41,568 nt of DNA from an uncultured Verrucomicrobia subdivision 3 bacterium (GTDB lineage: Bacteria; Verrucomicrobiota; Verrucomicrobiia; Limisphaerales; UBA11358), in contig CAINLR010000095.1 in assembly GCA_903850425.1 (NCBI GenBank), positions 1 to 41,568 of the forward strand. Reading direction: 5' to 3'. A program made the position numbers and the translations under genes. Positions within the stretch are counted from its first letter, which is position 1; each line of letters opens with the position of its first letter. Positions 3,522 to 11,434 of the stretch are shown one piece after another. The notes below the pieces were generated by a model, which did no database searches, was not told the DNA's origin, and saw only the letters and a list, made by a program, of their open reading frames with translations.

Positions 3522-4766
3522 ATGTTTGATCGATGGTATGCCAATGAAATGCAGGCGAAGTTAAGCCGGCCCTATGTCCATCTGCTGTTCGGAGCCCGGC
3601 AGACGGGCAAATCCACCTTGCTGAATGGGCTGATTCCCGCCGACGCCCTGCGCTTCAATCTGGCAGACCCGCAGGAACGCTCGCGGCATCTGGCTAATCC
3701 GGGCGAGTTTGCCCAAGCCTGCCGGAGCCTGCCGACGAATAAAAAAGGCCAGTTCGTCTTCGTGGATGAGGCGCAATCCGTGCCTTCCATCTTTGACGCG
3801 GTGCAGGCGCTTTACGACGCGGACAAAACACGGTGGCGCTTTGTGCTATGCGGCAGTTCGGCCAGAAAGTTGCGGTTGACTGGTGCCAACCTGCTGCCTG
3901 GCCGCAGTCTGGTGCATCACTTGTATCCGCTGACGCTGGCCGAACATCCGGCGAAGGAGGCTAAAATCCCGCACGCAACCTCGCCGCTGCCTTTTCCGTG
4001 GAGTGATGGGAAACAGGCGAAACATCCGTTTCCAGAGTGGGATTTGCAGACGCGGCTGACGTATGGCGCGTTGCCGGGCATCGTGACGGCGGACAAGCAG
4101 GATCGGCAAGGGTTGTTGAAGGCTTACGCGTTCGTGCATCTGGAGGAGGAAATTCGCCGCGAGGCATTGGTGAAAGATTGGGGCGCGTTCGTGCGCTTCC
4201 TGCAACTGGCGGCTGTCGAGTCGGGACAGATTTTGAACTATTCAAACATCTCGCAGGAGGCCGGCATCTCCCAACCGACGGTGAAGGGCTATTATCAATT
4301 GTTAGAAGATATGTTCATAGGCATCCGGGTGCCAGCCTACTCCAAGAGTCCGCGCAAGAACCTGCTCTCGACGCCGAAATTTTTATTTTTTGATCTAGGC
4401 GTGCGGCACGCGGCGGCGGGACTGGTTCCATCCAGCGATACGGTGAAAGCGAATCCGGGACCGATCTTTGAACAATGGGTGGGCATCGAGTTGTGGCAGC
4501 GCCTGCAATATCTCGGCGAAGGCAAGCTGTATCATCAACGCTCCCGCGATGGTGCAGAAGTGGATTTCATTGTCGAACATGGCGGCAGCCTGACGCCCAT
4601 CGAAGCGAAATGGACAGAGCATCCCACCTTGAACGATGCGCGGCATCTGCTGCCGTTCCTGCAAGAAAAAAAGAAAGAGGCGAAGCATGGCTATGTGGTT
4701 TGCCGCTGCCCGCGACCGCTGCAACTGCATGACCAGATCACGGCGCTGCCGTGGTTTGCCTTGTAA
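3522..4766 (+). CDS. ATP-binding protein, AAA_14 plus DUF4143 domains
   Basis: The 414-residue protein has Walker A GARQTGKST at residues 24-32 and a Walker B-like FVFVDEAQ at 78-85 (D82, E83). A sensor-like FVLCGSSARK follows near residue 110, and TRLTYGALPGIV lies mid-protein. The second half fits DUF4143: YYQLLEDMFIGIRVPAY, FLFFDLGVRHAAAG, then the nuclease-fold-like AEVDFIVEHGGSLTPIEAKW near 345-365. Such proteins are very common singletons in bacteria; their substrate is unknown and some neighbour mobile or defence genes. The length is normal and no residue looks broken. It is transcribed alone or with the KGG gene. Confidence 0.85.
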   Translation: MFDRWYANEMQAKLSRPYVHLLFGARQTGKSTLLNGLIPADALRFNLADPQERSRHLANPGEFAQACRSLPTNKKGQFVFVDEAQSVPSIFDAVQALYDADKTRWRFVLCGSSARKLRLTGANLLPGRSLVHHLYPLTLAEHPAKEAKIPHATSPLPFPWSDGKQAKHPFPEWDLQTRLTYGALPGIVTADKQDRQGLLKAYAFVHLEEEIRREALVKDWGAFVRFLQLAAVESGQILNYSNISQEAGISQPTVKGYYQLLEDMFIGIRVPAYSKSPRKNLLSTPKFLFFDLGVRHAAAGLVPSSDTVKANPGPIFEQWVGIELWQRLQYLGEGKLYHQRSRDGAEVDFIVEHGGSLTPIEAKWTEHPTLNDARHLLPFLQEKKKEAKHGYVVCRCPRPLQLHDQITALPWFAL

Positions 4767-4866: not shown

Positions 4867-5109
4867 TCATCTTTCCTCCTTCCAGTTAGCTTTCGCCATT
4901 TCAATCATCTCGTCCACTTCCCAACCGTTGCGATCGCATAGGTGAAAAATGTCACTGAACAGGTCTGCTGCGTTATAAGATTGCAGTTCGTCTGACGGGA
5001 AAATTTCAAATGCTTCGCGTATGGCTTGCTCAGCCCGATCGGCGCGCACGGCATTTGTTTGGCCAGCATCGTCTATATCTTTGCTGGGTTTGAACCTGAA
5101 TTTACCCAT
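4867..5109 (-). CDS. Small acidic protein, unknown, divergent from XRE regulator
   Basis: The 80-residue protein starts MGKFRFKPSKDIDDAGQT; an upstream ATG at 5130 would add seven residues. It has a predicted helix RADRAEQAIREAFEIF and ends DLFSDIFHLCDRNGWEVDEM followed by IEMAKANWKEER. An Ala/Arg helix, then DLxxDxxHxCDxxGxxxDEx, resembles small plasmid and phage proteins of unknown function. It is divergent from the XRE gene across a 116-base region with two palindromes, so the two may be co-regulated. Confidence 0.5.
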   Translation of the reverse strand: MGKFRFKPSKDIDDAGQTNAVRADRAEQAIREAFEIFPSDELQSYNAADLFSDIFHLCDRNGWEVDEMIEMAKANWKEER

Positions 5110-5149
5110 ATTTGAACCAGAATATCGCATTTACAAAAACCAACTTCCA

Positions 5150-5163
5150 CAGACTATAGTCTG
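5150..5163. promoter_or_regulatory. Perfect 14-base palindrome, probable operator
   Basis: CAGACTATAGTCTG is perfectly self-complementary and sits in the 116-base divergent region between the small acidic gene and the XRE regulator. A second, imperfect palindrome lies at 5178-5192 (GTTCTTTTAAGGAAC). Controller proteins of restriction-modification systems and phage repressors bind paired sites of this size, so this is the likely XRE operator. Confidence 0.5.
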
Positions 5164-5225
5164 CCAAGAACTCTGTTGTTCTTTTAAGGAACATTATCAA
5201 ACCGCCTTTCTGATAAAAACGCAAG

Positions 5226-5507
5226 ATGACAGCAGGCGACAAAATGCCACAGAGCCGCAATATCGTTGGCAAACGCGTTAAAGAGGCGCGGCAATCTCAC
5301 TTTCCCCCGCTGACGCAAGATCAACTTTCCGGAAAGCTCGCAGCCAACGGATTACAGCTGGACCGCGTAGCAATTGCAAAAATTGAAACGGGCATTCGTT
5401 GTGTTTTTGATTTTGAAATAAAGGCGCTGGCTAGAATACTGAAGGTTGATGCCAACTGGCTTTTAGGCATTGGAGGACGGTCTCAAACCGCACGAAAGCA
5501 CAAGTAA
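5226..5507 (+). CDS. XRE-family HTH regulator, possible controller protein
   Basis: The 93-residue protein is a single Cro/CI-type helix-turn-helix: RVKEARQSHFPPLTQDQLSG, KLAANGLQLDRVAIAKIETG, then FEIKALARILKVDANWLLG. The size and single-domain layout fit phage repressors and R-M controller proteins. It sits directly upstream of an HNH nuclease gene, with 4 bases between its stop and the next ATG, which is the classic C-protein/REase arrangement. Likely autoregulated through the palindromes at 5150-5192. ATG at 5226 is used; another ATG at 5244 is possible. Confidence 0.8.
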   Translation: MTAGDKMPQSRNIVGKRVKEARQSHFPPLTQDQLSGKLAANGLQLDRVAIAKIETGIRCVFDFEIKALARILKVDANWLLGIGGRSQTARKHK

Positions 5508-5511
5508 CTCC

Positions 5512-6144
5512 ATGAGCTTTCAAACCGCGAAATACTTGCGCAAAGCGACCGGGCGAGCCAAATCAGACGTGGCAAACAAGCTCGTCAGCATGTTTCTCCA
5601 TGAAGTCAGCCGTAAAATTACTGCAAAGGTTGGGTTGAGTGTTGCCGATCCAAAATATGTTCACGCTGTTGAGTCCGAATTTGGCGGCCATTGTTGTTAC
5701 TGCGGCCGATCATTGGAAAGCGACCGCGCAGCAGTCGAACATCCAGACGGGATGAACCGATTTCGAGCGGGTTTACACATCCCCGGCAACGTGGTTGTTT
5801 CTTGCAAGAAATGTAATAACGAGAAACGCCGCGACGACCAGCTTCACAAACTCACCTTGGCAACAACCGGCTGGGAATCATTTCTTTCGCATGATGGAAC
5901 AAAATGTGACGCAAACTGTAAAACCTGCGCCTATTGGAGTTCAATTTGGCCGGACGAAATGAAAGGGGAAAATCTAAAAGCAGCACGGCAAAAGATTTTA
6001 CAATTTCGTGCGCGCTACAAGGAATCAATTATTTTAAACCACAAGGCACATAATTCGCTTCGACAGGAATTAGATAAAATTTATCGGGACTGCCAGTTGT
6101 TTGCTACGAACAGAATTAAAGTCGCGGTTGAAGCCTTTTCTTAA
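5512..6144 (+). CDS. HNH endonuclease, candidate restriction enzyme
   Basis: The 210-residue protein starts MSFQTAKYLRKATGRAKSDV; an overlapping TTG at 5470 would add 14 residues. The HNH core spans about 60-110: C61-x2-C64 (HCCYCGRS), VEHPDG with H77, IPGNVVVSC with N93, and C98-x2-C101 followed by NNEKR. This is a zinc-ribbon-stabilised beta-beta-alpha-metal nuclease. A further Cys-rich stretch (KCDANCKTCAYW) lies near residues 135-146. Its place right behind an XRE regulator and tail-to-tail with a cytosine methyltransferase fragment suggests a Type II restriction role, by context. It could also be a plain phage HNH. Codon use is more A/T-rich than the flanking genes, suggesting separate acquisition. 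Confidence 0.75.
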   Translation: MSFQTAKYLRKATGRAKSDVANKLVSMFLHEVSRKITAKVGLSVADPKYVHAVESEFGGHCCYCGRSLESDRAAVEHPDGMNRFRAGLHIPGNVVVSCKKCNNEKRRDDQLHKLTLATTGWESFLSHDGTKCDANCKTCAYWSSIWPDEMKGENLKAARQKILQFRARYKESIILNHKAHNSLRQELDKIYRDCQLFATNRIKVAVEAFS

Positions 6145-6506
6145 AACTTGGCGGAAGCAAATCCTGGGACATTTTCAAAAAGGACGGCACGCGGCCTAAT
6201 GTGATCAACAAGGTCCAAAGCTGCGGGAAACATGTCGCGTGAATCATCGGCGCCAAGTTGTTTGCTGGCGATGCTAAATGGCGGGCATGGCACGCCGGCG
6301 GCAAGAAGGTCAATTCCGGTGAAATCTTCATGCCTGAGATGTCGGATGTCCTGCTGAATCACATTCCAGTGTGGGCGGTTTTTTCGCAACGTGGTGCAAT
6401 ATTGTGCCTCGTATTCCACGGCGGCGGCATGATGGAAGCCGGCCATCTCAAGACCGAGGGCCTGACCGCCACCGCCTGCGCAAAGTTCCAGAACAGCAAA
6501 GCTCAT
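6141..6506 (-). pseudogene. C5 cytosine DNA methyltransferase, truncated after motif VI
   Basis: The 121-residue frame from MSFAVLELCAGGGGQALGLE carries motif I (residues 6-20), motif IV with catalytic Cys in GVPCPPFS (C74), and motif VI ENVP at 111-114. It then stops after GFASAKF. Full enzymes are 300-450 residues; motifs VIII-X and the target recognition domain are absent, so it cannot methylate alone. Its TAA at 6143-6141 overlaps the TAA of the convergent HNH gene (6142-6144) in the sequence TTAA. No continuation is found in other reverse frames, which are antisense to the HNH gene. An upstream extension to 6581 is possible but unlike the family. It is either a deletion remnant or half of a split enzyme. 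Confidence 0.8.
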
Positions 6507-6937: not shown

Positions 6938-7141
6938 ATGGCTGAAAACGAAAGTGCCAGCGGCACGGGCAATGATAACGAACTGCCGCAGCGGAATCCG
7001 TTCCGCAGCAAGACGTGGAATCTCACGGCGCAAATGCAACTGCTCCGCGATGATCCCAAAAAGGCGCGTCGGCTGAAAGCCGAGGCGGAAGTGGATGGCG
7101 AGGCGGCAGGCCCCAAGGTGGGGCGTCGCAAATTTTATTAA
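6938..7141 (+). CDS. Small phage protein carrying the NPFR...NLTxQM motif
   Basis: The 67-residue protein starts MAENESASGTGNDNELPQRN in an AAAAAAATTATG context. Residues about 21-48 read NPFRSKTWNLTAQMQLLRDD then PKKARRLKAEAE. This matches the C-terminal 30 residues of the scaffold-like protein at 8944-9720 (NPFRKESFNLTEQMKLQKTD, then PATAARLKAAA). It is thus a free-standing copy of a head-assembly peptide motif with an acidic disordered N-terminus. The motif is known at the ends of phage assembly proteins, where it may contact portal, capsid or protease; here that role is inferred. It is the first gene of the head module. Confidence 0.55.
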   Translation: MAENESASGTGNDNELPQRNPFRSKTWNLTAQMQLLRDDPKKARRLKAEAEVDGEAAGPKVGRRKFY

Positions 7142-7194
7142 CCGCGAAATACACGAAACACCTTGCGGTGGGGCCAATTTGAAAACCTGAAATC

Positions 7195-7227
7195 ATGCCG
7201 GTGAATAGCACTCATCCTGATTATGAC
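7195..7227 (+). pseudogene. Relic of a second portal gene start
   Basis: From an ATG at 7195 the frame reads MPVNSTHPDYD, the same eleven residues as the true portal start at 7280, but most codons differ only synonymously. The frame then enters repeat R1 (7227-7250) and stops soon after. This is not a simple recent duplication: the third-position divergence points to recombination between two related phage genomes or an old duplication split by the repeat. Confidence 0.6.
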
Positions 7228-7250
7228 GGTCCTTGCGGACGGCCACCATG
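7227..7250 (+). repeat. Dispersed repeat R1, copy between the two portal starts
   Basis: This 24-base sequence (core GTCCTTGCGGACGG then CCACCATG) is identical to 9142-9165 and nearly identical, inverted, to 570-590. It directly abuts the eleventh codon of the portal start relic. Confidence 0.7.
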
Positions 7251-7279
7251 CCGCACCGTCAAGATTCTGCCCAATGCCT

Positions 7280-8905
7280 ATGCCTGTTAACTCCACTCAT
7301 CCAGACTACGATGCCAATATCCTGCCGTGGATGCGGGCGCGGGATGTCTATGCCGGCGAGGATGCCGTGAAGGCGGCGGGGCAGCGTTATCTGCCGCGGC
7401 TGGATTGCCAGGATGATACGGAGTATGCGGCGTATAAACAGCGGGCGTCGTTTTTCAATGCCACGGCGCGGACGGCGGACGGATTCACGGGCCTGATCTT
7501 CCGGCGGGAACCGGTCGTAAAACTCCCTCAAGACCCATTGCCAATTTCCAATCGCCAATTGCCAAATAGTGCTTCGCGCTTGGCGGCGGCGTTGAAGGAG
7601 TTTTTGAACAATTGCGATTTGCTGGGCACGACGCTATCGGCCTACGCAAAAATGTTGGTGGCGGAAATCATCCTCGTGGGTCGAGCGGGGACGTTGGTGG
7701 ACTGGGAAAGCGATGGTGTGCCGCGTGCGTATGCGGTGCGTTACAAGGCGGAAGACATCCTGAATTGGCGCACGTCCATGGTGAACGGGCGGCAGGTGCT
7801 TTCGCTGGTGGTGCTGCGTGAAGACGTGGCATCCGGCAAGGATGATGGGTTTGTGTGCGAGCCGGTGGAGCAAATTCGCGTGTTGCGACTTGAACCTGTC
7901 GAAGCTGGACCTGCCACCGGGGGGCGTAAAAATGGTTCTTCCCGTTCAACCCTCACCCGGCCTGCGGCCACCCTCTCCCGCTCCCGCGGGCGAGGGACAA
8001 GCGCCGAATGGCAATGTGTCGTGGAGATTTGGCAGCGCGGCAGCACGGGCAAAAGGGAATGGCAGTTGGTGGAAACGAAGGTGCCGGTGCGCCGGGGCAA
8101 ACCGCTGCCGCTCATTCCCTTTGTCTTTCATGGGCCGCGTCACTCGCTGCCGGAAGTGGACAAGATCCCGCTCGACGACATCATTGCCAAGAATCTGGAT
8201 CACTACCGTCTGGATGCTGACTACAAACATGGGATGCACTACACCGCATTGCCTACCGCCTGGGTATCTGGCTTCGACAAGAACTCCAGTCTGCGCATTG
8301 GTAGCAGCACGGCCTGGGTCGCTGAAACGCCCGGCGCGACGGCGGGCTATCTTGAATTTCATGGTCAAGGTCTGGCCACCTTCGAACGCGCGATGGATCG
8401 TGACGAACAACTCATGGCCGTCCTCGGCACGCGAATGCTGGAATCCAAGAAGCGCGTCGGCGAAACGGCTGCGGCCATCGAACTGCGGCAGAGCGGCGAG
8501 AACTCCATTCTCAACACGGTCTCTCTCAGCGTCAGCGCATCGCTCACACAAGTCTTGCGCTGGGTCTATTGGTGGAACTCGACGGAAGCAATCCCGGATG
8601 CCATCGGTCCTGACCTGGTCTTGGTCACGCTGAACAATGACTTCAGCATCACCGGCATGTCGGCATTGGAAATCACCGCACTCGTGGCCGCATGGCAAGC
8701 TGGTGCCATCAGTCAGGCAACCATGCTCGACCTCTTCCGCGCTGGTGAGGTCATCGCCCCCGGTCGCACCAACGATGAGGAAATCCAACTACTGCAAAAG
8801 CAGAAAGCAGAAAATGGGAAAGCTGAAAGTGCTGCCACGCGGGCACCAGCAATCCCGCCGACTGCGCCCGGTGATGTGAACGCCACGCCGGTCAACACGA
8901 ACTGA
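7280..8905 (+). CDS. Phage portal protein, DUF4055-like
   Basis: The 541-residue protein starts MPVNSTHPDYDANILPWMRA; an ATG two codons earlier (7274) is also possible. It has the N-terminal signature WMRARDVYAGEDAVKAAGQR and YLPRL of DUF4055 portal proteins, then FFNATARTADGFTGLIFRRE. A central LIPFVFHGPRHSLPEVDKIP block and late ESKKRVGETAAAIELRQSGE follow, with an A/Q-rich C-terminus. It forms the dodecameric DNA gate at the capsid vertex and anchors the terminase. Residues about 224-239 (LTRPAATLSRSRGRG) are encoded by an R2 repeat, so a short foreign peptide interrupts the chain. No terminase gene is found upstream, which is unusual. Confidence 0.85.
   Translation: MPVNSTHPDYDANILPWMRARDVYAGEDAVKAAGQRYLPRLDCQDDTEYAAYKQRASFFNATARTADGFTGLIFRREPVVKLPQDPLPISNRQLPNSASRLAAALKEFLNNCDLLGTTLSAYAKMLVAEIILVGRAGTLVDWESDGVPRAYAVRYKAEDILNWRTSMVNGRQVLSLVVLREDVASGKDDGFVCEPVEQIRVLRLEPVEAGPATGGRKNGSSRSTLTRPAATLSRSRGRGTSAEWQCVVEIWQRGSTGKREWQLVETKVPVRRGKPLPLIPFVFHGPRHSLPEVDKIPLDDIIAKNLDHYRLDADYKHGMHYTALPTAWVSGFDKNSSLRIGSSTAWVAETPGATAGYLEFHGQGLATFERAMDRDEQLMAVLGTRMLESKKRVGETAAAIELRQSGENSILNTVSLSVSASLTQVLRWVYWWNSTEAIPDAIGPDLVLVTLNNDFSITGMSALEITALVAAWQAGAISQATMLDLFRAGEVIAPGRTNDEEIQLLQKQKAENGKAESAATRAPAIPPTAPGDVNATPVNTN
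7950..7996 (+). repeat. Dispersed GC-rich hairpin repeat R2, copy C inside the portal gene
   Basis: CCCTCACCCGGCCTGCGGCC continues ACCCTCTCCCGCTCCCGCGG and GCGAGGG. It has the same layout as the copies at 627-667 and 6888-6922. It keeps the portal frame open, adding about 16 residues rich in Arg, Ser and Thr. Confidence 0.6.
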
Positions 8906-8911
8906 CTTAAC

Positions 8912-8940
8912 CGCAGAGAACGCAGAGAACACAGAGAAAA
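8912..8940 (+). repeat. Dispersed CGCAGAG-type repeat R3, half copy
   Basis: ACCGCAGAGAACGCAGAGAA then CACAGAGAAA fills the 38-base gap between portal and scaffold-like genes. It matches the left arm of the complete copy at 9726-9799. Such CGCAGAG tandem units are a common intergenic repeat in environmental genomes. Confidence 0.6.
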
Positions 8941-8943
8941 TTT

Positions 8944-9720
8944 ATGGCCCTGAAATACAAATTCGCAACCAAGCAGGAAATTCCTGCTGAACATCAATCC
9001 CTGTATGTCGAGCGCGATGGCGCTTGGCTGCTCGATGCCGATGGTGTCGTGAGTCAGACCAAGCTGGATGAGTTCCGCCAGAACAACATCACGCTCACCA
9101 ACCAACTGAAACGCTTTGATGGCATTGACCCTGACGACGTGCGGTCCTTGCGGACGGCCACCATGAAGATGCAGGAAGAAAAGCTCAAGCTGGAAGAGGC
9201 GGCGCAGATCAAGGCCGGTGAAGTGGACAAGGTCATTGAGGCGCGACTGAAAGCCGCCCGCGCCGAATGGGACAAGACGCATGGCGTCGTGGTTGCCGAA
9301 CGTGACGCGCTCACTGGTCGCCTGACGGCGATTCAGATTGATCAAGCCGTCGTCACTGAAGCCACAAAACGTGGCCTGCGGCCGACGGCGATTACGGACA
9401 TTACTTCTCGCGCTCGCCAGACGTTCAAGCTCGTCAATGGCGTGCCGCAATCTTTCGAGGCTGACGGCCAGACTGCCCGCATGGGCAAGGATGGCGTGTC
9501 GCCGATGACTTTGGCCGAATGGGTGGATGCGTTGGTGTCTGACGCACCGCACTTATTCGAAGCAAATGCTGGCAGCGGTGCTGCGGGCTCTGGTGGCGGT
9601 GCCGCTAGTAACCGGTCCGTGAAAAATCCGTTCCGCAAGGAATCGTTCAATCTCACGGAGCAAATGAAATTGCAGAAAACCGATCCCGCGACGGCGGCGC
9701 GACTCAAGGCCGCGGCGTGA
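8944..9720 (+). CDS. Phage scaffold-like head assembly protein
   Basis: The 258-residue protein starts MALKYKFATKQEIPAEHQSL in an AAAATTTATG context. The N-terminal YVERDGAWLLDADGV, a long charged coiled-coil region (about 60-130, KMQEEKLKLEEAAQIKAGEV), a Gly/Ala linker near 205-225, and the C-terminal motif NPFRKESFNLTEQMKLQKTD are visible. Position between portal and capsid, helix-rich sequence and moderate length fit a scaffold protein. Residues 67-74 (VRSLRTAT) are encoded by repeat R1. A role in capsid assembly is inferred from context. Confidence 0.65.
   Translation: MALKYKFATKQEIPAEHQSLYVERDGAWLLDADGVVSQTKLDEFRQNNITLTNQLKRFDGIDPDDVRSLRTATMKMQEEKLKLEEAAQIKAGEVDKVIEARLKAARAEWDKTHGVVVAERDALTGRLTAIQIDQAVVTEATKRGLRPTAITDITSRARQTFKLVNGVPQSFEADGQTARMGKDGVSPMTLAEWVDALVSDAPHLFEANAGSGAAGSGGGAASNRSVKNPFRKESFNLTEQMKLQKTDPATAARLKAAA
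9142..9165 (+). repeat. Dispersed repeat R1, copy inside the scaffold-like gene
   Basis: Identical over 24 bases to 7227-7250. It is read in frame as RSLRTATM at the start of the coiled-coil region. Either the repeat inserted here, or this coding sequence is the source of the other copies. Confidence 0.65.
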
Positions 9721-9725
9721 GATCA

Positions 9726-9799
9726 ACCGCAGAGACGCGGAGACGCGGAGAAAACAAAAACTGAATCTGAAAACTCTGCGCCTCAGCGCCTCGGCGGTG
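9726..9799. repeat. Long inverted repeat R3 between scaffold and capsid genes
   Basis: The left arm ACCGCAGAGACGCGGAGACG plus CGGAG (9726-9750) pairs with the right arm CTCTGCGCCTCAGCGCCTCG plus GCGGT (9775-9799), with mismatches. The ~24-base A-rich centre forms the loop. It fills most of the 99-base gap and could act as an attenuator or RNA-stability hairpin ahead of the capsid gene. Confidence 0.7.
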
Positions 9800-9819
9800 A
9801 AATAGAAAATTAAAACATT

Positions 9820-10495
9820 ATGGCCAAGACACAACTTGCAGACATCATCGTGCCAGCGCAGTTCGCTGGTTACGTTCTCCAACGGACGGCGGAGAAATCC
9901 GACCTATTCCAATCCGGCATTGTCATCCGCACGCCGGACTATGACACGCGGGCCGCGCTGGGCGGCACGCAAGTCAACATGCCGCACTGGAATGATCTGA
10001 CGGGCAACCGCCAGCCGCTTTCCGATTCGGCACCGCTCGTGCCGGCGAAACTGGTCGCCGACCAGGACATCGCCCGCATCCAGAACGACGGCAATGCGTG
10101 GTCGTGGAATCATCTGGCAACGCAAGTCTCGGGTGATGATCCGGCCTTGGCGCTGGCGGATTTCCTCGCCGAATACTGGAACCGCCAGAACCAATACATG
10201 CTCATCAACTCCCTCACCGGCGTGTTCGGCGCGGCGAGCATGGCGGGCAATCTGTTGGCGATTCAGAGTGAATCCGTCGCCGCGCAGACGGCCGCCACGC
10301 GGCTCAACGGCGCGACCTTCGTGGACGCGACGCAACGGCTCGGTGATCGCGGCGACCGGCTCGTGGCCGTGGCGATGCACTCGGCCACCGAAGCCGCGCT
10401 GCGCAAGCTCGACCTGATTGACTTCATCCCGGATAGCCAGGGTGAAACTCAAATCAAGACGTTCCAAGGCCGGCGCGTCATCGTGGATGACGGCT
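9820..10495 (+). pseudogene. Phage major capsid protein, C-terminus lost
   Basis: The frame starts MAKTQLADIIVPAQFAGYVL. It continues AALGGTQVNMPHWNDLTGNR, then LADFLAEYWNRQNQYMLINS and FQGRRVIVDDG, a pattern typical of HK97-unrelated coat proteins encoded after a scaffold gene. About 225 residues are capsid-like; families of this type run to 320-360. After VDDG at about 10495 the frame runs 42 more codons (to 10623) that are antisense to an integrase, so the shell protein is incomplete. The break is a clean fusion to the integrase tail, best explained by a deletion that removed the rest of the phage. The island therefore cannot make virions alone. Confidence 0.8.
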
Positions 10496-10498
10496 GGC

Positions 10499-11434
10499 GT
10501 AGGAACGATGCACGGCCGAGCTGTTGTGCCCCAGCGCCTCTTGTGCGAAACGTTCGGGATAACCGGCCGTTTTTGCGCGCTCAGCCTACGCATATCGATA
10601 CGAATGCAGCGTCACGCCTTTGATTGCCAATCCCCGGCAGCGCTGCTTGAACTCGGTGGCGCGGTCCCCCGCCCGCACCGTGGCAAGATACGGAAACAGC
10701 GGGCCGCTGCCCGGCAGGTCCTGTAAGACCGCCGCCAAGCCCGCGCCAAAATGCAGCCGCGCCACGCTCTTGGTCTTGCGCCGGAAAAAGCTGATGACCT
10801 TTTGTTCCCAATCCACGTCCTCGGCCGTGAGCATGGCCAGATCCGTCTGCGCCGCGCCCAGGTGCCATGCCAGTTGATAGAAGGCCCGGCGCTCGGGATT
10901 GCGTTCCCGCGCGAGGATGGCTTCATGCTCGGCCAGCGTCACGGCGCGTTTCTCCTGATACACCGGCTTGGGCCATTGCCGGCGCGGCACGAGCGATTTG
11001 GGCAGCCAGTTCATATCCAGGGCGAAGTTGTGCAGCCGGCGCAGATAGACATTGGTGGACACGGTGCCGGTGCGCAGGACTTTGAGGAGGTGATCGGCGC
11101 GGGTATCCAGCAACGGCAAATCGCGGATGAGGTCCAAGGCGTGGTCCGCCCAGGCGGTGACGTAGCGGTCGCGGGTGACGGTTTGTTTGGTGGCGGTCAT
11201 CTCGTCCATGACGAAACGCCACTGGCGTTTGGCGGCTTCAGCATCGGTGGCGCTGAGATACGCCAGCGCAATCTGGCGGTTGAGGATGGGTTGCCGGGAC
11301 GCCTCGTTCTTGGAATGAAGCAGGGCCTTGGCGGCGGCTTCATCGCGCGTGCGCAGGCTCGCCTGTTTGCCGTTCTGCGTGTCCTGGGCGTAGTAGATGC
11401 CGTTGCGGCGGTAGAGGCTGAACTGGGGTTTCAT
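10499..11434 (-). pseudogene. Tyrosine recombinase (integrase) with in-frame amber stop
   Basis: From MKPQFSLYRRNGIYYAQDTQ the frame encodes an arm/core-binding domain and a catalytic domain with FFRRKTKSV (lysine hairpin), LHSYRYA (H-x-x-R box), a TAG at 10588-10586, then AERAKTAGYPERFAQEALGH followed by NSSAVHRSY. The tyrosine (codon 10501-10499, residue 312 if the TAG is read through) fits the nucleophile. A Trp is expected at the TAG position, so a single G-to-A change explains it. The usual Arg of box I is absent: the region reads GAAQTDLAMLTAEDVDW. The C-terminal tail after the Tyr is replaced by capsid DNA. It lies next to tRNA-Cys, as expected for an integrase acting at that gene. It would excise or integrate the island if suppressed; otherwise it is dead. 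Confidence 0.8.

Follow-up and report, generated by a model that had tools for sequence, protein, structure and literature searches.

A conserved XRE-HNH nuclease cassette beside remnants of NgoMIV/NaeI-class restriction-modification operons, and its possible role in their displacement

We analysed a stretch of 41,568 nucleotides (the window), which is the entire contig C95 of a 6.9-Mb genome (197 contigs, 96% complete), and found that an XRE-type regulator gene and an HNH nuclease gene form a conserved cassette under purifying selection, which ends against the front part of a truncated cytosine-5 (C5) methyltransferase gene. The explanation that we favour, although tentatively, is that XRE-HNH displaced the rest of an M.NgoMIV/M.NaeI-class restriction-modification (R-M) operon, perhaps because the HNH protein is hostile to the methylated state. 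We found no published account of the XRE-HNH cassette in the open-licence PMC literature.

The XRE-HNH pair and its surroundings in the window

The regulator gene (5226-5507, + strand, 93 aa) is the first gene of the cassette and the HNH gene (5512-6144, + strand, 210 aa) the second, its ATG lying 4 bases after the XRE stop. The methyltransferase piece (6141-6506, - strand, 121 aa) comprises residues 1-121 and converges on the pair, ending at the HNH stop, so that the TTAA at 6141-6144 is common to both stop codons. The earlier note had described these three genes, the 4-base spacing and the shared TTAA, all of which were found in place, and it was right to speak of a broken R-M locus, since only a front-end fragment of the methyltransferase is present.

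Upstream of XRE lies an operator-like palindrome, TGTTCTTTTAAGGAACA (5177-5193, no strand assigned), for which shuffling predicts 0.08 occurrences of the pattern TGTTC-N7-GAACA in the window. A palindrome of the same type was present upstream of XRE in 20/20 loci passing the filter (the wider palindrome listing across loci was read by eye), and DNA conservation on the operator side of the cassettes starts around the operator, making TGTTCTTTTAAGGAACA a candidate site of XRE autoregulation. The earlier note had spoken of palindromic operators. A second sequence, GACTATAGTC at 5152, lies inside a 40-base stretch (5124-5163, no strand assigned) matched, as far as checked, in locus L034 alone, with 82.5% likeness. 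In L034 a NaeI-type restriction gene probably starts within the shared 40 bases, which may be either a remnant of a restriction enzyme (R) gene or a part of the cassette. The protein match between 5102-5272 and L034 is partly the cassette itself, with only the 40 bases outside it in common, and the R side of the window is at best weakly indicated by this stretch.

The surroundings are phage-like, with genes for a portal (7223-8905), a scaffold (8944-9720), a major head protein (9820-10623) and an integrase (10586-11434). Of the 351 residues of the head protein only 1-227 fit its family, and the head gene shares bases with the end of the integrase frame; the stretch 7223-11434 looks like a decayed prophage, with which the R-M system may have arrived before the prophage decayed. 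On the other side, an ATPase gene at 3522-4766 encodes AAA_14 and DUF4143 domains and matches the PADLOC candidate PDC-S01 (E 6e-69).

The first full-length relative was found in genome G158 (46%), and a search with the resulting two-row alignment gave 57 further loci from Verrucomicrobiota and Acidobacteriota, or 58 including the window. An XRE match adjoined HNH in 53/57 loci, and of the four remaining loci L072, L079 and L081 have HNH beginning at the edge of the stretch. Five HNH pairs gave Ka/Ks values of 0.06-0.16 and three XRE pairs values of 0.10-0.13, and purifying selection acts on the conserved cassette; synonymous changes in the methyltransferase fragments were saturated and gave no Ka/Ks value. 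The HNH relatives closest to that of the window (L031-L033, 83-86%) have neither a methyltransferase fragment nor R-M debris beside them.

Matches of XRE to the Pfam HTH models and of HNH to HNH_5 (E 0.0043) were below the cut-offs, and the family libraries identified the latter only as a generic HNH protein. Across 46 aligned homologues 41 columns were invariant, the invariant residues including H77, N93, N102, C61, C98 and C101, with C64 nearly so. A motif filter selected these rows and removed 12/58, including pieces cut by contig ends and L057, L061, L063 and L086, in which the HNH frame is broken. The predicted structure (mean pLDDT 92.6) consists of a long N-terminal helix, the HNH core and C-terminal helices. 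Fold comparison matched only the core region, covering mainly residues 43-188, mostly with Cas9 HNH domains (Z up to 7.3), and returned no whole-protein match, which is no proof of a new fold. Pfam recognised no modified-base-reading domain in the 210 residues. Searches for a phage or plasmid origin of HNH gave zero matches among phages or plasmids, while in viral contigs four matches covered 45-48 residues of the core and the two-row alignment found none.

The methyltransferase relic and its class

The piece matched PF00145 with an E of 2.8e-31, over profile positions 1-117 of 324 only, and with 121 of about 318 residues it does not extend to the target-recognition region and the C-terminal motifs. 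Methyltransferases from plasmid records were found directly before NgoMIV-family or NaeI-family restriction enzymes; the relic is 64% identical over 119 residues to one adjoining an NgoMIV-family enzyme, and shares kinship with the methyltransferases next to enzymes of either family. It is also 73% identical to the intact enzyme in L167. By these resemblances it is the front end of an M.NgoMIV/M.NaeI-class methyltransferase, which we tentatively regard as a dead relic of a presumably GCCGGC-type R-M operon. Behind the intact methyltransferase of L167 (4866-3641, - strand) come a small XRE gene and an HNH protein, neither of them that of the cassette, an arrangement that plausibly represents a true C-regulated HNH R-M system.

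NaeI is taken here to read GCCGGC as well, although the published passage prints its site differently. Recognition of GCCGGC by NgoMIV is stated in the available text of PMC4081073. This sequence occurs 69 times in the window, twice within the methyltransferase fragment, and 462 times against 523 expected in 279 kb of the window's genome. The absence of strong avoidance speaks against a nuclease that cuts unmodified GCCGGC, and cleavage of the unmethylated site by HNH was rejected as an explanation. A different sequence, GTAC, was nearly missing from the same 279 kb (window plus L030 and L172-L191, same genome), with 1 occurrence against 267 expected, and from the window alone (0 against 34). 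It was also nearly missing in L031-L033, L049 and L152, but most Acidobacteriota cassette loci retain it, so that the cassette does not explain the scarcity and GTAC was ruled out as the HNH target.

Cassettes, debris and intact systems

Using 15 intact methyltransferases split into front and back parts as queries (E 1e-3), we detected front parts of this class in 18/58 loci and back parts in 0/58. L029 was left out because it duplicates L080 and its complete enzyme is a separate one, and L063 because its C5 methyltransferase is unrelated (28% identity); nor did we count a questionable stretch of a different C5 family next to HNH in L049 (Pfam E 0.015). The fragments end anywhere from about residue 17 to about residue 160, thus varying over more than 100 residues, and in three of the 18 (L046, L066 and L069) they are short (16-28 residues). 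The nearest methyltransferase copy had its cut end towards the cassette in 18/18 loci, although it ran in the same direction as the cassette in eight (L055, L059, L064, L066, L067, L069, L076 and L080) and in reverse in ten. A second fragment in L080 has its cut end pointing away from the cassette; at this locus (G158, 7100-9904) two front-end fragments, with upstream DNA that is also similar, flank the cassette before an NgoMIV-type gene, which looks like a duplication of the operon front. L073 carries a second XRE gene remnant, reversed, between cassette and methyltransferase fragment (8740-8923, - strand).

Junctions were close. In 13 of the 22 loci with HNH-side debris within about 1 kb, the HNH stop was at most 40 bases from the debris or within it (the window, L036, L037, L039, L040, L043, L055, L067, L069, L072, L076, L079 and L081), the coordinates being tblastn ends accurate to some tens of bases, and in L037 the HNH frame continues into antisense methyltransferase sequence. 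Genes or pieces of NgoMIV type were present at 6 loci, NaeI type at 6, HNH-type R remnants at about 11 and Vsr at 12, with family searches backing NaeI in L034, NgoMIV in L045 and L077, and Vsr in L068. Most R genes looked broken: they were shortened in L042, L043, L055, L059, L063, L066 and L069, had no clear start in L077, and were without the expected active-site residues, whose roles we presume, in L044 and L059; those of L034, L045 and L080 appeared intact. Vsr looked shortened or frame-shifted in 9/12. Altogether about 36/58 loci contained R-M debris (a union made by hand), and about 22/58 cassettes were without it.

Debris of R or Vsr was located on the far side of the cassette, on the strand expected of an operon of methyltransferase and R, in L055, L064, L067, L069, L076, L080, L039, L040, L043 and L046. 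Exceptions were L036 and L073, with HNH-type R debris on the unexpected strand, and L058, with Vsr on the unexpected side; in L059 and L066 R is on the strand opposite the methyltransferase, as it is in the intact L211. HNH-type R debris of a second kind (L039-L041, L046-L048 and L053) was only 30-37% identical to the R of intact systems in the HNH region.

In a tree of 35 methyltransferase front parts, ten fragments (L095 among them) were scattered among intact enzymes, requiring 5 changes, and a single clade of fragments was rejected (p-AU 2.5e-72). The presence of fragments in several methyltransferase lineages indicates that displacement recurred. On the HNH tree (46 rows), fragment presence needed 12 changes, and orientation needed 6 among 29 hand-labelled rows from which the L050 label had been removed. 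The L095 fragment (G233) ends near a contig end, where a cassette can be neither seen nor excluded, and it was used in the tree without being counted among the 18; likewise uncounted were G086, where an open frame of 218 residues close to a contig end belongs to a different C5 subfamily, and a case in G408 that a contig end cuts off. According to the earlier note, HNH genes occurring without any methyltransferase, together with the lack of a complementary half, would make the fragment an unrelated relic. HNH does occur without a working methyltransferase and no complementary half was found, but the fragment is not unrelated, because its association with the cassette recurs in independent lineages.

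Intact systems of this class consist of the methyltransferase and an R of NgoMIV, NaeI or HNH type, often with Vsr, and the XRE-HNH cassette was absent from the 24 examined with their flanks (20 + 4). We also sampled 387 Verrucomicrobiota and 297 Acidobacteriota genomes (684 in all), of which seven had the cassette at E 1e-20. Class fragments at E 1e-30 were present in 3/7 cassette genomes (G000, G221 and G228) and in 0/677 others (p 6.6e-7, or p 0.007 once the search centres G000 and G228 are removed), at a cut-off that overlooks short pieces such as two shorter fragments in G158; G264, G226 (= L065) and G581 were debris-free. A full-length class methyltransferase (at least 56% identity) occurred in 0/7 cassette genomes and 25/677 others (p 1.0, not significant), and an intact one in 1/50 with the cassette and 21/385 without (p 0.26, not significant); in the comparison of 9/50 with 0/385, the cassette set is not a random sample. 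One genome, G214, contained both the cassette (L052) and an intact pair of methyltransferase and R (L092), so that any incompatibility may not be strict.

Displacement, its alternatives and known systems

Taken together, these results suggest that the cassette and this R-M class are rivals. We tentatively interpret XRE-HNH as an independent, self-regulated nuclease cassette and not as a C-regulated R-M system. XRE would repress its own promoter at the palindrome, and HNH would, in the least certain step, attack DNA bearing this class of methylation in a type IV-like manner, in which case a cell could keep the cassette only if the methyltransferase were lost. A loss reaching from the middle of the methyltransferase gene into R would simultaneously disarm the restriction enzyme and leave front parts only. 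Whatever the type of R, the back end of the methyltransferase is always lost; the cassette therefore appears not to coexist with this enzyme or with the mark that it makes.

We counted in favour of displacement the 18/58 front and 0/58 back parts, the facing cut ends, the close junctions, the debris, the scattered lineages, the 24 intact systems without the cassette and the 3/7 against 0/677 genomes, together with the non-avoidance of GCCGGC and a published conflict between an HNH enzyme and a C5 methyltransferase (PMC8989522). Against it we counted the roughly 22/58 debris-free cassettes, including L031-L033, the broken HNH frames in L057, L061, L063 and L086, and the lack of a recognised modified-base-reading domain. 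The co-occurrence in G214 and the absence of a significant deficit of intact methyltransferases also counted against it, above all against the proposed hostility to methylation. Finally, R looks intact in L034, L045 and L080, yet no class methyltransferase was found in G197 and G207, so that under the displacement reading R must be silent there.

The decay of Vsr, R and methyltransferase alike, and the existence of debris-free cassettes, would also be expected if XRE-HNH merely rode in defence islands and the neighbouring R-M genes decayed randomly after its arrival, and corruption of one partner is common among R-M genes according to the available portion of PMC3488263. We nevertheless consider this unlikely, given that class fragments were found only with the cassette in the 684 sampled genomes, that 18 front parts contrast with 0 back parts, and that the junctions with the HNH stop are tight. 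HNH is a common fold of homing nucleases, and homing normally retains both flanks at one site. The main novel alternative is that HNH cuts the methyltransferase gene, the cassette is copied into the break, and it spreads through the R-M family like a gene drive. The recurrent position inside the methyltransferase, in both orientations and in several of its lineages, is in keeping with this, as is a published homing insertion, hiding an HNH enzyme, in a phage methylase (available text of PMC11855218). Homing fits the junctions less well than displacement does, since the break points vary over more than 100 residues, the back of the gene is never kept and a single insertion site with both gene flanks was not seen, and about 22/58 cassettes lie elsewhere; we regard it as quite improbable.

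A small chance may be given to the view that XRE and HNH were the regulator and restriction enzyme of this very methyltransferase, which was lost once HNH had become harmless. The gene order resembles a C-R pair with a convergent methyltransferase, and an R of HNH type is found in some intact systems of this class. However, HNH is still under purifying selection, debris of NgoMIV- and NaeI-type R lies beside the cassette, and no intact case was found at 58 loci or in 24 intact systems. The proposal of a C-controlled R-M system with an HNH restriction enzyme is not supported either: none of the 58 loci had an intact cognate methyltransferase beside the cassette, and the 24 intact systems were without XRE-HNH, so that XRE-HNH and the methyltransferase were ruled out as one R-M system. 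Split C5 enzymes exist, and the 121-residue piece retains the regions of motif I and the PC motif in an open frame, so that it could in principle work with a C-terminal partner encoded elsewhere, as the earlier note had also considered. Searching the window's genome (96% complete) turned up no such half; the sole other C5 enzyme found there (contig 67, 509 aa, near a gene read by eye as Vsr-like) is complete. Nor was a C-terminal half present beside any homologue at the 58 loci, where the break points differ (from about residue 17 to about residue 160), and a split enzyme, to which we assign hardly any probability, was ruled out by these genome and locus searches.

Returning to displacement, a bolder version, which we think doubtful, is that XRE-HNH is a compact selfish element, held in check by its repressor, that preys on GCCGGC-class R-M operons by destroying the methyltransferase in mid-operon and has spread through two phyla. 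R-M systems behave like selfish, addictive elements and are expected to be hard to evict. If displacement is correct, a small cassette that replaces one R-M class again and again, across several lineages and two phyla, would be a natural record of addiction breaking, and would allow a conflict between nuclease and methylation mark to be tested. For annotators, an HNH gene next to a methyltransferase piece should not be read as an R-M system.

Among known systems, conflict between an HNH enzyme and a cytosine methyltransferase does occur: the available text of PMC8989522 describes PcaRCII, an HNH endonuclease that depends on methylation and conflicts with the PcaRCI R-M system. The cassette resembles PcaRCII in being a solitary HNH nuclease without its own methyltransferase, opposed to a C5 methyltransferase, the likeness being one of description. 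There, according to the same text, promoter methylation keeps the nuclease gene silent and the two persist, whereas in the present case the methyltransferase has been destroyed and the cassette carries an XRE regulator of its own. As in the type IV HNH enzymes ScoMcrA and TagI, as excerpts describe them, an HNH catalytic core stands without a methyltransferase partner and is proposed to act on modified DNA, although, unlike in those enzymes, a modified-base-reading domain was not recognised. A nuclease gene beside a truncated methyltransferase gene also recalls the solitary restriction enzymes near a corrupted methyltransferase in the available portion of PMC3488263, but in those cases the nuclease was formerly paired with the methyltransferase, while HNH is foreign to the system around it. 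With C-protein-controlled type II R-M systems the cassette has in common a small XRE gene directly before the nuclease gene and a palindromic operator upstream, and differs from them in having no working cognate methyltransferase at 58 loci. Finally, the relic methyltransferase belongs with the NgoMIV/NaeI-class R-M systems, which in their intact form comprise a methyltransferase, R and often Vsr, without the XRE-HNH pair.
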